Below, piece after piece: positions 54,308-58,337 of a stretch of DNA of 64,000 nucleotides. The DNA is from Clostridium sp. (GTDB lineage Bacteria > Bacillota > Clostridia > Clostridiales > Clostridiaceae), in contig NZ_JAKVOI010000001.1 in assembly GCF_022482905.1 (NCBI RefSeq), forward strand, positions 3,473,958 to 3,537,957, read 5' to 3'. Made by a program: the position numbers and the translations under genes. Every line of letters starts with the position of its first letter. Position 1 is the first letter of the stretch. The notes beneath the pieces were generated by a model that ran no database searches, was not told where the DNA came from, and saw only the letters and a list, made by a program, of their open reading frames with translations.

Positions 54308-54411
54308 CTTCCAGTCCTCCAATTATAAAATTTTTGTCTACATTAGGTATAGTATCATAGATTCTAACTATAAGTCTATATTGTAGAATTATTTATGTTT
54401 ACTTTTTTTAC

Positions 54412-54440
54412 TTGACTGTATTGAATTTATATAGTATTAT
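54412..54440 (+). promoter_or_regulatory. Promoter of the T-box/nitrogenase-like operon
   Basis: TTGACT (54412-54417), 17-base spacer, TATTAT (54435-54440). Transcription would start about 35-45 bases before T-box Stem I. Confidence 0.7.
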
Positions 54441-54483
54441 TTGAAGCATAAGTCTAATATATAATAGACTGTTTAATAATTTA

Positions 54484-54776
54484 ATTGCTATGATGAGAAG
54501 AGTAGGCTGCACAATGCTACGAGAGAGAATTCCCCCTGGGTGTAAGGAAATTTTAGCTAAAATGTAGTCGAATTGCATCTTTGAGCACTGAGTTGAATCC
54601 TAGTAGATTTCAGCGTGTACGTACGTTAGAACGTTGAGGTATGATTGTACCAATAATTAGTTTTTACATATGAACTGTATTTGTGTAATTTATACAGTTT
54701 AATATGCGATAAACAGAGTGGAACCGTGAAAGTGACCTTTTGCCTCTGTATAGAGACGGAAGGTTTTATATATTTT
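54484..54776 (+). promoter_or_regulatory. T-box riboswitch, tRNA-Cys specific
   Basis: Stem I: GATGAGAAGAGTA (K-turn and AGTA), helix GGCTGCA (54505-54511)/TGTAGTC (54563-54569), AG bulge GAGAGAG and distal loop GGGTGTAAGG. The specifier loop reads GAAT-TGC-A, so the codon is TGC (54574-54576), cysteine. T-box sequence: ACAGAG (54713-54718), TGGAACCGTG and CTCTGT (54744-54749). Its tRNA-binding bulge TGGA (54719-54722) pairs with UCCA ends, meaning discriminator U73, as in tRNA-Cys. The competing terminator is ACCTTTTGCCTC (54735-54746)/GAGACGGAAGGT (54753-54764) plus TTTTATATATTTTT. Uncharged tRNA-Cys would switch the operon on. Confidence 0.9.
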
Positions 54777-54820
54777 TATATAATTTTGATTATAATTCTT
54801 AGTTGACCAGATATACTGGA

Positions 54821-54862
54821 GACTAGGTAAGCAGAAAGTTGATGCTTGCTTGGTCTTTTTTT
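54821..54862 (+). terminator. Second terminator in the leader
   Basis: GACTAGGTAAGCA pairs (three G-U) with TGCTTGCTTGGTC, followed by seven Ts, 31 bases before the start codon. A further checkpoint after the T-box terminator, with no gene in between. Confidence 0.7.
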
Positions 54863-54892
54863 GTATTTAAATTATGAAGAAAGGGTGATAAA

Positions 54893-56446
54893 ATGTCAAA
54901 AAAAACAATAAATCTTAACTTGACGCAAGTAGAAAACAGGGAGACTAGATTAGGGACCATAACTGCCTGGGATGGTTCGGCAACTGAGTTGTGGAAGGAA
55001 TCAAACTATGAATTGAGAAGTCAGAGGAAACATGATGGCTGCAAAAAACAGAAAGTTTGTCGATTGTGTGAATTAAATTCACCGATAAATCAACAGACAA
55101 TGTGTGCTAATGCCATTGTTGAATGCCAGATAGGGAATATTACAGACTGTGTACTTATTCAGCATGCTCCAGTTGGTTGCTCGGCAGATAATGCCTGGTT
55201 TAATCTTGCCTTTAACATGGGACTTGGAAGAAGGAACAAGCCGCCACAGAATTTACAGATTTATAGCACAAATCTTTTAGAAAATGATATGGTTTTTGGT
55301 GCTTCAGATAAACTAAAACAGACAATACGGGATGCAAAGGAACGTTTTAATCCCAGAGCAATTTTTATTTCAATGTCGTGTGCTACGGCTATTATAGGTG
55401 AAGATATAGATAGTGTTGCACAAGAGATGGAAAAAGAAATTGGAATAACAGTTATTCCATTGCATTGCGAAGGCTTTCGCTCAAAACACTGGAGCACTGG
55501 ATTTGATATTTCACAGCATGGAGTTTTACGTCAAATAGTAAAGCGCAAACCTGAAAAACAGAAGGATTTAATTAATATTGTGGCTTTGTGGGGAACTGAT
55601 TATTTTACAGAAATATTAAAACCTCTTGGCTTGAAAGTAAATTATATGATAGACATGGCAAGCTATGATGAACTTGCTCAGGCATCGGAAGCTGTGGCTA
55701 CAGCAACTTTTTGTCACACACTTGGTTCTTATATGGCTACAGCACTTGAGGAACATTTTGGTGTTCCGCAGATTGACGCACCTCAGCCTTATGGAATTTC
55801 AGGTACGGATGCATGGTTGAGGGCAATCGGTAAAGTTGTTGGGAAGGAAAAGGAAACCGAAGAATACATAAAAAGCGAGCATGAAAGAGTACTTCCCAAA
55901 ATTAAGGAACTGCGAGAAAAGTTTAAAGGAATTAAAGGGTTTGTCATGACAGGTTCATCTTATGCACATAGTCTTATTTCAGTTCTGCGTGAATTGGGAA
56001 TAGGTGTTGATGGTTCTGTGGTATTCCACCATGACCCTGTTTATGACGGTGGACATGAGAATCAGGATACGCTTAGAGAGCTTATCGGCACTTATGGAGA
56101 TATCCCTAATTTTACAGTAAGTAAAACACAGGCATTCCAATTAAATGCCCTATTTAAACGGGTGAAGACAGATTTTGTAATAATTAGACATCAGGGACTT
56201 GCACCTGAGGCGGCAAAACTCGGTATCCCATCTTTGGCCATGGGTGATGAGCATTTTCCTGTTGGTTATGATGGAATAATTCGAACGGGTGAGGTTTTGC
56301 TGGATATTCTTGCAAGAAAGAAGTTTAATGAGGTTCTTTCTAGACACGTTAAAAGTCCGTATAATGAATGGTGGCTTAGCCAAAATGATCCATTTTTGCT
56401 TGCAAAACATCCTGAAGTGCTTGATGAAAGAGTAAAACTTGTGTAA
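54893..56446 (+). CDS. Nitrogenase-like component 1, NifD-type subunit
   Basis: A 517-residue protein of the nitrogenase component 1 superfamily. Cysteines 71, 96 and 163 (MCANAIVEC, PVGCSADN, SMSCATAIIGEDI) sit where P-cluster ligands are expected. Cys274 in ATFCHTLGSYMATALEEHFGVP aligns with the FeMo-cofactor cysteine of NifD (HCYRSMNYI), and His454 in MGDEHFPVGYDG may match the cofactor histidine. Extra N-terminal cysteines 50, 56 and 59 are unusual. Overall it does not look like NifD, AnfD, VnfD, BchN or CfbD, and is closest in style to methylthio-alkane reductase-type proteins. Controlled by a Cys T-box. No NifH-like gene is in the window. RBS GAAAGGGTG. Confidence 0.85.
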   Translation: MSKKTINLNLTQVENRETRLGTITAWDGSATELWKESNYELRSQRKHDGCKKQKVCRLCELNSPINQQTMCANAIVECQIGNITDCVLIQHAPVGCSADNAWFNLAFNMGLGRRNKPPQNLQIYSTNLLENDMVFGASDKLKQTIRDAKERFNPRAIFISMSCATAIIGEDIDSVAQEMEKEIGITVIPLHCEGFRSKHWSTGFDISQHGVLRQIVKRKPEKQKDLINIVALWGTDYFTEILKPLGLKVNYMIDMASYDELAQASEAVATATFCHTLGSYMATALEEHFGVPQIDAPQPYGISGTDAWLRAIGKVVGKEKETEEYIKSEHERVLPKIKELREKFKGIKGFVMTGSSYAHSLISVLRELGIGVDGSVVFHHDPVYDGGHENQDTLRELIGTYGDIPNFTVSKTQAFQLNALFKRVKTDFVIIRHQGLAPEAAKLGIPSLAMGDEHFPVGYDGIIRTGEVLLDILARKKFNEVLSRHVKSPYNEWWLSQNDPFLLAKHPEVLDERVKLV

Positions 56447-56467
56447 AAACATATGAGGAGGATTAGA

Positions 56468-57817
56468 ATGTCTGAAACTAAGATAGAGAAAAAAAGCAGT
56501 ACAATAGTACATCCACATTATGCTTGTGCAGTAGGCGGCGCATATACTGCAGTAGCAATTAAGAATGGTGTTCCAATTACAAACTGTGGACCGGGGTGTA
56601 TGTACAAGCAATACTTTTTTATGGGATTTGAAAATGGCTTTCAAGGTTCTACCAGTACCGGCGGAGGTAATGTTCCCAGTGTAAATGTAGGTGAAAATGA
56701 TATAGTATTCGGAGGTGAAAAAAAGCTTGATAATTTAATAAAATCAGTTTTAGCAATTTATAATGGTGAATTGTTCGTGGTAGCTACAGGCTGTACTGGA
56801 GAACTTATAGGAGATGATGTCGGAGCAGTTGTAAAGAAATATCGTGAGGCGGGTTATCCTATAGTGTATGCAGATACAGCTGGTTTCAAAGGTTCAAACC
56901 TTATAGGTCATGAAATTGTTGTGAAAGCAATTATAGATCAATTTGTTGGAGATTATGAAGGGGAAAAGAAAAAAGGATTAATCAATTTGTGGTTTGAGAC
57001 ACCTTTTTTTAATACAAATTGGCGTGGAGACTATTTGGAAATTGTAAGGATTTTAAAGAATATAGGTTTTGAAGTAAATGTACTCTTTGGACCACAAAGT
57101 GGTGGGGCAAAAGAATGGAAGGAAATTCCCAAAGCACAATTTAATCTTGTAATATCACCCTGGGTAGGAGTAAATATTGCGAAACACCTGGAAAAAAAAT
57201 ATAATCAGCCTTATTTGCATATTCCTGTAATACCTGTTGGTGAGGAAGCTACTACAGCTTTTATAAGACAATTAGTTGAATATACAGGAATCGATGCTGG
57301 AAAAGCAGAAGCGTTTATTGAAGAAGAGACAGAATTGTATTATTACTTTTTAGATTCTTTTTCACATTTTTTCTCAGAGTATTGGTATGGCCTGCCCTCC
57401 CGATTTGCTGTTGTAGGCGACAGTGCTTATACGCTTGCCTATACAAAATTTCTATCAGATCAGATGGGGCTTATACCTGTAAAGCAGATTATTACAGATA
57501 ATCCACCGGAGCAATTCAGAGAGAAAATAAGCAAGGAATTTAGGAATCTGTCTGAAGGTGTGTCTGTGGAAGTAGAATATATTGAAGATGGTTATCTTGC
57601 AGAAAAATCACTTGCAGAAGCTGATTTCGGTTCAGGAGTTCCATTGATATTGGGTTCAACATGGGAATCCGATGTAGCACGACAAAAAAATGCATTGCTA
57701 ATAGAAATAAATTCACCTTCTTCCGAGACAGTAGTGCTGAACAGATGTCATATAGGATATAGAGGTGCTCTGCAGTTGATAGAGAGAATTTATACATCAA
57801 CTGTAGGCGGAAAGTAA
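56468..57817 (+). CDS. Nitrogenase-like component 1, NifK-type subunit
   Basis: A 449-residue partner of the preceding protein, 21 bases after it. Cysteines 20, 40/44 and 109 (HYACAVGG, NCGPGCMYK, ATGCTGELIGDDVGAV) are P-cluster-like. Other family segments: YADTAGFKGSNLIGHE, PVGEEATTAFI, SRFAVVGDSAYTLAYTKFL and GYRGALQLIERI. ATG 56468 follows GAGGAGG. The two subunits should form a heterotetramer needing an external NifH-type reductase. A decayed copy lies at 10218-10740. Confidence 0.85.
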   Translation: MSETKIEKKSSTIVHPHYACAVGGAYTAVAIKNGVPITNCGPGCMYKQYFFMGFENGFQGSTSTGGGNVPSVNVGENDIVFGGEKKLDNLIKSVLAIYNGELFVVATGCTGELIGDDVGAVVKKYREAGYPIVYADTAGFKGSNLIGHEIVVKAIIDQFVGDYEGEKKKGLINLWFETPFFNTNWRGDYLEIVRILKNIGFEVNVLFGPQSGGAKEWKEIPKAQFNLVISPWVGVNIAKHLEKKYNQPYLHIPVIPVGEEATTAFIRQLVEYTGIDAGKAEAFIEEETELYYYFLDSFSHFFSEYWYGLPSRFAVVGDSAYTLAYTKFLSDQMGLIPVKQIITDNPPEQFREKISKEFRNLSEGVSVEVEYIEDGYLAEKSLAEADFGSGVPLILGSTWESDVARQKNALLIEINSPSSETVVLNRCHIGYRGALQLIERIYTSTVGGK

Positions 57818-58021: not shown

Positions 58022-58160
58022 ACTTAAGAATAGAGATAATAAAAGCAGGATGCTGGTAACATCCTGTAGTATACAACTCAGTTGCTCGACCAACTGATAA
58101 AGCTTAAACTATAAAAAGTAGCCATACCAATTGAGACGGGTGGGCTACTTCTTTATGTTA
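58022..58160 (+). ncRNA. Probable antitoxin small RNA
   Basis: Downstream of TATAAT (58014-58019) come two tight hairpins, CAGGATG/CATCCTG (58046-58066) and TCAGTTG/CAACTGA (58079-58098), and then AGTAGCC...GGGCTACTT (58115-58150), which ends in T-rich DNA. The last stem is also the terminator of the toxin gene on the opposite strand, so the two RNAs overlap at their 3' ends, as in Bacillus TxpA/RatA-type systems. The -35 is not clear. Confidence 0.6.
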
Positions 58161-58240
58161 TTTATAAGCACGATAATTAAATTTATCAAAGCTATCAAAA
58201 ACGATAGAGCAGCAAAAACTACTATAAACATTTCGTACAT
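58145..58240 (-). CDS. Type I toxin-like small membrane peptide (Hol_Tox/TxpA type)
   Basis: A 31-residue peptide starting MYEMFIVVFAALSFLIALIN, almost wholly hydrophobic, ending in charged NNIKK. ATG 58240 is preceded by AAGGGAGGTGATACAT, an exceptionally strong ribosome binding site typical of type I toxins. The peptide closely fits the putative holin-like toxin family. A TATAAT box on the minus strand at 58315-58320 would give a leader of about 70 bases. Paired with an RNA encoded on the + strand. Confidence 0.8.
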   Translation of the reverse strand: MYEMFIVVFAALSFLIALINLIIVLINNIKK

Positions 58241-58337
58241 ATGTATCACCTCCCTTCTTAAAGGGATGGCAATACCAGCTGCCCACACGCAACTTATTGA
58301 ATTGTACATTTCATATTATATCATAGAATGTGAGTGC

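Follow-up and report, generated by a model that had tools for sequence, protein, structure and literature searches.

Which signals govern a two-gene operon of the nitrogenase component 1 superfamily in a Clostridium sp., a relative of Clostridium tyrobutyricum, that possesses nif-type genes as well, and what chemistry do its products serve? The operon lies in a 64,000-nt stretch of the genome (contig NZ_JAKVOI010000001.1 of assembly GCF_022482905.1, positions 3,473,958 to 3,537,957, forward strand), referred to below as the window, and an original prediction from the letters alone had placed a cysteine-specific T-box riboswitch in front of it. The evidence assembled here makes it probable that the two genes form an operon of the methylthio-alkane reductase (Mar) type, MarDK, under two tandem attenuators, a cysteine T-box and then a conserved hairpin, which together would exert AND control over organosulfur scavenging. 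Both the T-box and the Mar-type enzyme stand confirmed. The novelty lies in their combination and, with greater weight, in the second element. The locus would couple an enzyme of the nitrogenase superfamily to starvation for an amino acid by way of an RNA that senses tRNA.

The cysteine T-box

The following features, all on the plus strand, make up the first part of the leader:

54412–54440, plus strand: promoter-like site TTGACT-17-TATTAT upstream of the T-box (consensus scan, 10/12 matches)
54481–54750, plus strand: cysteine T-box riboswitch
54574–54576, plus strand: specifier UGC of the T-box
54719–54722, plus strand: T-box bulge UGGA
54735–54768, plus strand: T-box terminator hairpin with one C-A mismatch and a short, interrupted U run (fold −12.1 to −13.8 kcal/mol)

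The covariance model RF00230 aligned to the T-box over its whole length (model positions 1–219 of 219; 80.6 bits; E 6.6e-18 for the 551 nt scanned), and the same site was recovered at E 1e-17 as one among 34 T-box matches in the whole genome (a single contig of 3,567,184 bases). Since the score lies below the Rfam gathering score of 93, a default Rfam scan is silent on it. In about 10 other T-boxes of the genome, which precede valS-, pheS-, metG-, serS-, ileS-, alaS-, proS-, and leucine-type genes (identities assigned by eye from the starts of open reading frames, ORFs), the specifier sits 7 nt ahead of the closing Stem I strand; applied to the window, this register yields UGC, the triplet that had been predicted. 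The bulge UGGA is complementary to UCCA, and the tRNA-Cys(GCA) of the genome ends in U73-CCA, in agreement with the predicted pairing; among the 29 distinct tRNA sequences read (65 tRNA hits in the genome), U73 occurs only in Cys, three Gly, and Thr(GGT). Specifier and UGGN bulge are both matched by one tRNA, tRNA-Cys, and cysteine specificity is confirmed at the level of sequence. The neighbouring specifier reading UUG (Leu) is disfavoured; both tRNA-Leu read, (CAA) and (UAG), carry A73. A competing terminator is present, though as a weak hairpin at 54735–54764, and the promoter call is weak because the region contains 23 such sites against 17.7 expected by chance.

UGC stands in the same register in four further T-boxes of the genome. 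One of them precedes a cysK-like gene (L011), another has no clear gene in the following kilobase (L010), and a third (L052) is followed by a methyltransferase, a Cys/Met-type pyridoxal-phosphate (PLP) enzyme, and a CBS/CysK-like gene, an order that can be compared with the ubiG-mccBA operon as excerpted from PMC2940859. The fourth, near position 2,637,000 of the genome on the minus strand (L054:3855-4260), is a Cys T-box succeeded by an S-adenosylmethionine (SAM)-I riboswitch and then by an ATP-binding cassette (ABC) permease and ATPase (by eye), forming a two-sensor leader.

A second, conserved attenuator

Two overlapping structures follow on the plus strand:

54798–54827, plus strand: conserved antiterminator-type hairpin RGUU-GA-CYAG-ANANA-CYRG-A-GRCY, with a lower stem of 7 bp here (model R1, fold, covariation)
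54820–54862, plus strand: second-attenuator intrinsic terminator (fold −23.5 kcal/mol, z −3.8), which uses the 3' strand of the hairpin as its own 5' strand

This attenuator as a whole (54798–54862) follows the T-box. The terminator/antiterminator layout of the original prediction is present, but where one such layout had been claimed, the T-box terminator and this element form two attenuators in series, and the T-box terminator is weak. Folded by itself, the 32-nt element adopts the predicted hairpin in 94% of the ensemble (−12.0 kcal/mol); with the downstream sequence, the same RNA folds into the terminator. Because positions 54820–54827 belong to both structures, the two are mutually exclusive, and by these predicted folds the overlap has the layout of an antiterminator design.

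The hairpin recurs widely. A first search pattern, allowing up to two mismatches, was found in 31/206 genomes of the family and its reversed control in none, and a second pattern, with two base pairs left free, gave 62 exact matches in 22/206 genomes (reversed control, 0). Both free pairs are standard in all 62 matches (CA/UG, UA/UA, or UG/CA, with G-U in three). Among 391 sampled genomes of the class, five had matches, one of these outside the family, against two for the control. Merging two duplicates and adding one class site gave a working set of 61 distinct sites, in all of which the letter preceding the pattern is G. The base pair that borders the pattern on its outer side is standard (AU, GC, GU, or UA) in 60/61, a count reached by 0/2000 shuffles. 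Across the 8-pair hairpin 99.8% of cells pair; the figure falls to 94.4% on shuffling and never exceeds 51.3% when the alignment is slid. Beyond 4 bp of lower stem, only the pair −3/24 is in slight excess (47/2000 shuffles), and long lower stems are not significant (23 sites with at least 6 bp; shuffled mean 15.6, maximum 24). The terminator begins at the 3' side of the hairpin in 49/61 sites.

The covariance model R1 placed its sole convincing site of the window at 54797–54828 (45.6 bits, E 1e-9), with one other at E 0.67. Among the 4227 Rfam families, searched at E up to 10, nothing matched the window element save a chance-level miRNA model overlapping its 3' part, and at 20 other motif loci (E up to 0.5) nothing covered the motif save mir-75 at one locus (L334), with 30 bits, half its cut-off.

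Distribution and putative regulon of the second element

Model R1 matched 38/206 family genomes; the genome of the window carries 15 copies, and others have as many as 28 (G148). A close MarD is encoded in 27/38 of these genomes compared with 36/206 overall (P 1e-17, kinship ignored). One downstream protein per site, chosen by a length-and-distance rule, was available at 60 of the 61 sites and was scanned against Pfam. Nitrogenase-type proteins account for 24/60 (11 Oxidored_nitro, 6 NifH, 6 NifB-like, and 1 Nitro_FeMo-Co) and transport proteins for 20/60 (7 ABC ATPases, 4 permeases, and 9 binding proteins), sulfonate-type transporters being frequent in the regulon. There are further two MetK and one Cys/Met PLP enzyme, together with eight other proteins: one M20 peptidase, two of phosphodiesterase type, two PNPOx, two Fer4_5/FMN_bind, and one TatA. 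The remaining five had no Pfam match at cut-off; in a looser scan of four of them, two were radical-SAM proteins, one matched radical-SAM weakly, and one was TatA-like. Radical-SAM proteins stand directly 3' of the motif at L224, L250 (G123), and L297 (G148; weak match), and by analogy with IsrB, which serves the isethionate reductase Isr, they may act as partners to further enzymes of the nitrogenase-like kind.

Pattern matching put a SAM-I riboswitch upstream of the motif at 17/61 sites and downstream at 3, many sites having only 300 nt of upstream DNA; Rfam confirmed all 10 upstream and 3 downstream cases scanned. A T-box lies upstream at 1/61 sites, that of the window, and the motif stands alone before metK in two genomes (G008 and G030). 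Near position 721,300 of the genome (L332:94-838), a 152-amino-acid ORF that lacks any Pfam match, and 45% of whose residues contain sulfur (51 Met, 17 Cys), stands behind two motif copies (36.0 and 31.9 bits) with no obvious terminator; it is perhaps a sulfur store.

On this evidence it is reasonably likely that the hairpin constitutes a novel regulatory RNA class served by a separate effector, either an undescribed antiterminator protein or a directly bound sulfur metabolite, and that it commands a clostridial organosulfur-scavenging regulon of nitrogenase-like C–S lyases, cofactor genes, sulfur transporters, and metK, in modular combination with SAM-I riboswitches and, here, with a Cys T-box. 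The element may deserve the status of such a class. It would mark a sulfur regulon in many anaerobes and predict which of the uncharacterised nitrogenase-like paralogues serve sulfur scavenging.

The enzyme

The leader is followed by two genes:

54893–56446, plus strand: marD-type gene, 517 amino acids (P-cluster C71, C96, C163; cofactor C274, H433; R432)
56453–57817, plus strand: marK-type gene, 454 amino acids (P-cluster C25, C49, C114)

Each coding sequence contains one Oxidored_nitro domain (Pfam). All 12 active-site residues of MarD and all three P-cluster cysteines of MarK, as named in the excerpt of PMC12552129, are conserved, in keeping with the P-cluster-like and cofactor-like cysteines noted originally; the cluster ligands and the Arg-His hallmark of Mar are thus found in the pair, and Arg-His, Trp, and Phe replace Nif residues in the D subunit. 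Neither protein comes near the NCBIfam cut-off of any listed Nif, Vnf, Anf, Bch, or CfbD model (for the marD-type protein against the NifD model TIGR01282, 145.5 bits with a cut-off of 653.6), which bears out the claim that they are of neither the N2-fixing nor the chlorophyll/F430 type. The best PDB matches are 9fmg/9d9u, with 652 bits (D) and 530 bits (K), the next structures reaching 141 and 86 bits. 9FMG is the Rhodospirillum rubrum methylthio-alkane reductase (PMC12552129), and 9d9u would be the same enzyme, given the common K chain. Identity to R. rubrum MarD is 57% over 498 positions and to MarK 50% over 439.

In a reduced tree of 29 alpha subunits, without an IsrD row, the window protein is placed inside a Mar-like group of 26 rows, and the three Nif-type sequences encoded in the same genome (NifD-, NifE-, and a third Nif-type) stand apart (support 100/100). 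The phylogenetic check proposed for the alpha subunit thus came out on the Mar-like side: nif-type genes are present in the genome, and the window protein nonetheless branches apart from them. Within the 26-row group, it and R. rubrum MarD belong to different subclades. Identity with NifDK is ruled out by the residues, the tree position, and the TIGR01282 score. The two genes appear to encode the catalytic component of a Mar-type enzyme; its cofactor type is well supported, more so than its putative substrate, a methylthio-ether or other organosulfur compound. The predicted role in sulfur scavenging is supported along with cysteine specificity and the Mar-type assignment. The chemistry of R. 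rubrum Mar releases methane, ethane, and ethylene (excerpt of PMC12552129).

The locus consists of two genes only, with neither marH nor marB of a mar operon adjacent. Elsewhere the genome has three strong NifH matches (435, 425, and 398 bits) and a NifB-like radical-SAM gene; the nif-type genes and a large nitrogenase-like cluster would have to supply the reductase and cofactor assembly. That cluster (L045-L047, genome positions 1,090,000–1,128,000) holds 8 MarD-type and 7 MarK-type subunits, one NifH, and a NifB-like gene, along with sulfonate-type ABC transporters, Cys/Met PLP enzymes, and an ANTAR regulator with a PdtaS-type kinase. One more D/K pair lies near 971,000, and the MarD-type subunits of the genome number ten.

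Composite make-up of the leader

A DNA search with positions 54440–54892 against the 206 family genomes divided the leader into two parts with different relatives. Positions 54449–54767 are 83–84% identical to Cys T-boxes of three genomes (G126, G127, and G134), which in G126 and G127 lie directly 5' of a methyltransferase/PLP-enzyme pair. In G134 (L207), an IS200-like transposase ORF (by eye) sits between the Cys T-box and its methyltransferase gene. Positions 54773–54892 are 79% identical to the leader directly 5' of nifH-marD in G126 and G127, the MarD of G127 being 95% identical to that of the window. In the mar leader of G126, Rfam identified a SAM-I riboswitch at the place held by the T-box in the window. 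To judge from these alignments, the leader is composite: its T-box is of the kind found before methionine-to-cysteine-type operons and stands where the closest mar operon of a sister species has SAM-I.

Regulatory model and alternatives

In the model that we favour, a MarDK-type enzyme carrying a P-cluster and an [Fe8S9C]-type cluster would cleave the C–S bond of an organosulfur compound reductively, served by NifH and NifB encoded elsewhere. At the first gate, uncharged tRNA-Cys would pair with UGC and UGGA and stabilise the antiterminator, letting RNA polymerase pass. At the second gate the hairpin, once stabilised, would keep the intrinsic terminator that follows from forming, since both structures need one and the same strand, 3' in the hairpin and 5' in the terminator; the stabiliser would be something present under sulfur limitation, most likely an RNA-binding protein, as the small size of the element suggests. 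The operon would be expressed only with both gates open.

Several observations weigh against this model. The T-box is not conserved with mar genes among the relatives testable for upstream DNA: its core is absent within 500 nt upstream in 76 of 79 named MarD relatives, the other three (L125, L126, and L153) having upstream DNA too short for the scan, and the five degenerate pattern matches seen are all intragenic or >2 kb off. Rfam at cut-off gave no T-box match in 13 of these relatives, and in 30 further family loci the sole match is degenerate (L200, 660 nt upstream, two mismatches). The window T-box terminator folds at −13.8 kcal/mol compared with −24.0 for its relative in G126. Forcing the second hairpin costs about 6 kcal/mol relative to its terminator, so an effector would be needed to stabilise it, and no candidate protein was found in six motif-rich regions. 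As regards covariation, the measure that counts pairs with changes on both sides, one of five, is not significant (40/500 shuffles reach it), and the hairpin is partly fixed by the search pattern; since pattern-fixed letters occur in five of its eight pairs, the independent evidence consists of the two pairs left free, the outermost pair, and the invariant G before the pattern. The terminator test fails at 12/61 sites, at some of them because the terminator extends further into the hairpin (by eye). Finally, 9/36 MarD genomes have no R1 match, and 11/38 R1 genomes have no close MarD.

Some of these points lend themselves to the explanation that the T-box is decaying and regulates little, the second attenuator alone being in control. 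Its score of 80.6 bits, a terminator about 10 kcal/mol weaker than in G126, with a mismatch and an interrupted U run, the absence of T-boxes at other mar genes, and a report of incomplete function for the Cys T-box of Clostridium acetobutylicum ubiG (excerpt of PMC2940859) are all consistent with decay. Yet the specifier, UGGA, and the hairpins are all intact, and the UGC T-boxes at 447882 and 2637072 of the genome (87.5 and 75.6 bits) are likewise under the Rfam cut-off, so we regard such decay as improbable, while the second attenuator probably carries much of the control. As to the enzyme, a related C–S lyase other than Mar, e.g., one of the Isr type releasing sulfite, would accord with the differing subclade, with the frequency of sulfonate-type transporters in the regulon, and with the description of Isr as an independent clade near MarD (excerpt of PMC11423573). 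A search for IsrD among plasmids gave two distant homologues only. The identity of 57%/50% to R. rubrum MarDK and the presence of all Mar residues checked, a comparison drawn with Mar alone, make this assignment rather doubtful next to a Mar-type enzyme.

The nature of the second effector admits two alternatives to the undescribed antiterminator protein that we prefer. The element might be a very small riboswitch for SAM, methionine, homocysteine, or another sulfur metabolite, with the internal loop and the ANANA loop as pocket. Its loop letters are strongly conserved (A9, A11, A13, and UUGA in 61/61 sites, though all are pattern-fixed), the metK sites carry the motif alone, and no candidate binding protein was found; set against this, the element measures only about 26 nt and coexists with SAM-I riboswitches, so that SAM would be sensed twice, and we consider this option unlikely. 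By eye, six motif-rich regions hold enzymes, transporters, a DNA-binding-type response regulator with a kinase, and cell-wall-type and a few other proteins; no common protein among them is recognisable as RNA-binding. Binding by an ANTAR response regulator, suggested by the ANTAR regulator and PdtaS-type kinase that adjoin the nitrogenase-like cluster, is hardly credible: the domain was undetected in 11/38 motif genomes, including the one with 28 copies, and the element is one hairpin with the pentaloop ANANA, whereas ANTAR targets are described in the excerpt of PMC3369931 as two hexaloops with A1 and G4. ANTAR was rejected because of this distribution and loop type.

Other RNAs of the window and published precedents

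Open-licence PubMed Central articles, as far as their excerpts extend, describe neither a T-box in front of mar genes nor the second-element motif. This negative is limited by PMC10418091, whose earlier version holds the terms nitrogenase-like, T-box, and riboswitch, whereas the excerpted v4 has neither T-box nor riboswitch. A further limit is PMC2965389, which mentions an unnamed attenuator preceding a sulfonate transporter in bacilli.

Two further RNAs occur in the window. At 2014–2068, a Na+ riboswitch (RF03071, 51.4 bits) lies just 5' of a gene at 2104 that is antiporter-like by eye. At 58045–58309 on the minus strand, an RNA resembles BsrG of a type I toxin-antitoxin system (39 bits, cut-off 55, E 9.7e-8) and includes a short hydrophobic ORF (58145–58309).

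Comparison with known systems

The BglG/LicT ribonucleic antiterminator (RAT) is a small protein-dependent antitermination hairpin that overlaps and excludes an intrinsic terminator. The dual hairpins of ANTAR regulators resemble the second element in the same respect, a small hairpin overlapping and excluding an intrinsic terminator (excerpt of PMC3369931). In contrast to both, the second element consists of one hairpin capped by a pentaloop and interrupted by a GA/A internal loop, precedes sulfur genes, and has no known partner protein.

With the clostridial ubiG-mccBA Cys T-box, as excerpted from PMC2940859, the window shares the UGC specifier and the T-box layout; unlike that system, it controls a nitrogenase-superfamily enzyme, is followed by a second attenuator, and has a weaker terminator. 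Tandem riboswitches in T-box or SAM combinations (excerpt of PMC12452182) likewise place several attenuators serially before one operon, whereas the second attenuator of the window is outside the known riboswitch families. R. rubrum MarHDK, to the extent described in the excerpt of PMC12552129, has in common with the window the MarD/MarK residues for the P-cluster and the [Fe8S9C] cluster and the Arg-His loop; the window differs from it in the 57%/50% identity, the subclade, the lack of adjacent marH and marB, and a leader composed of a T-box and a second attenuator.

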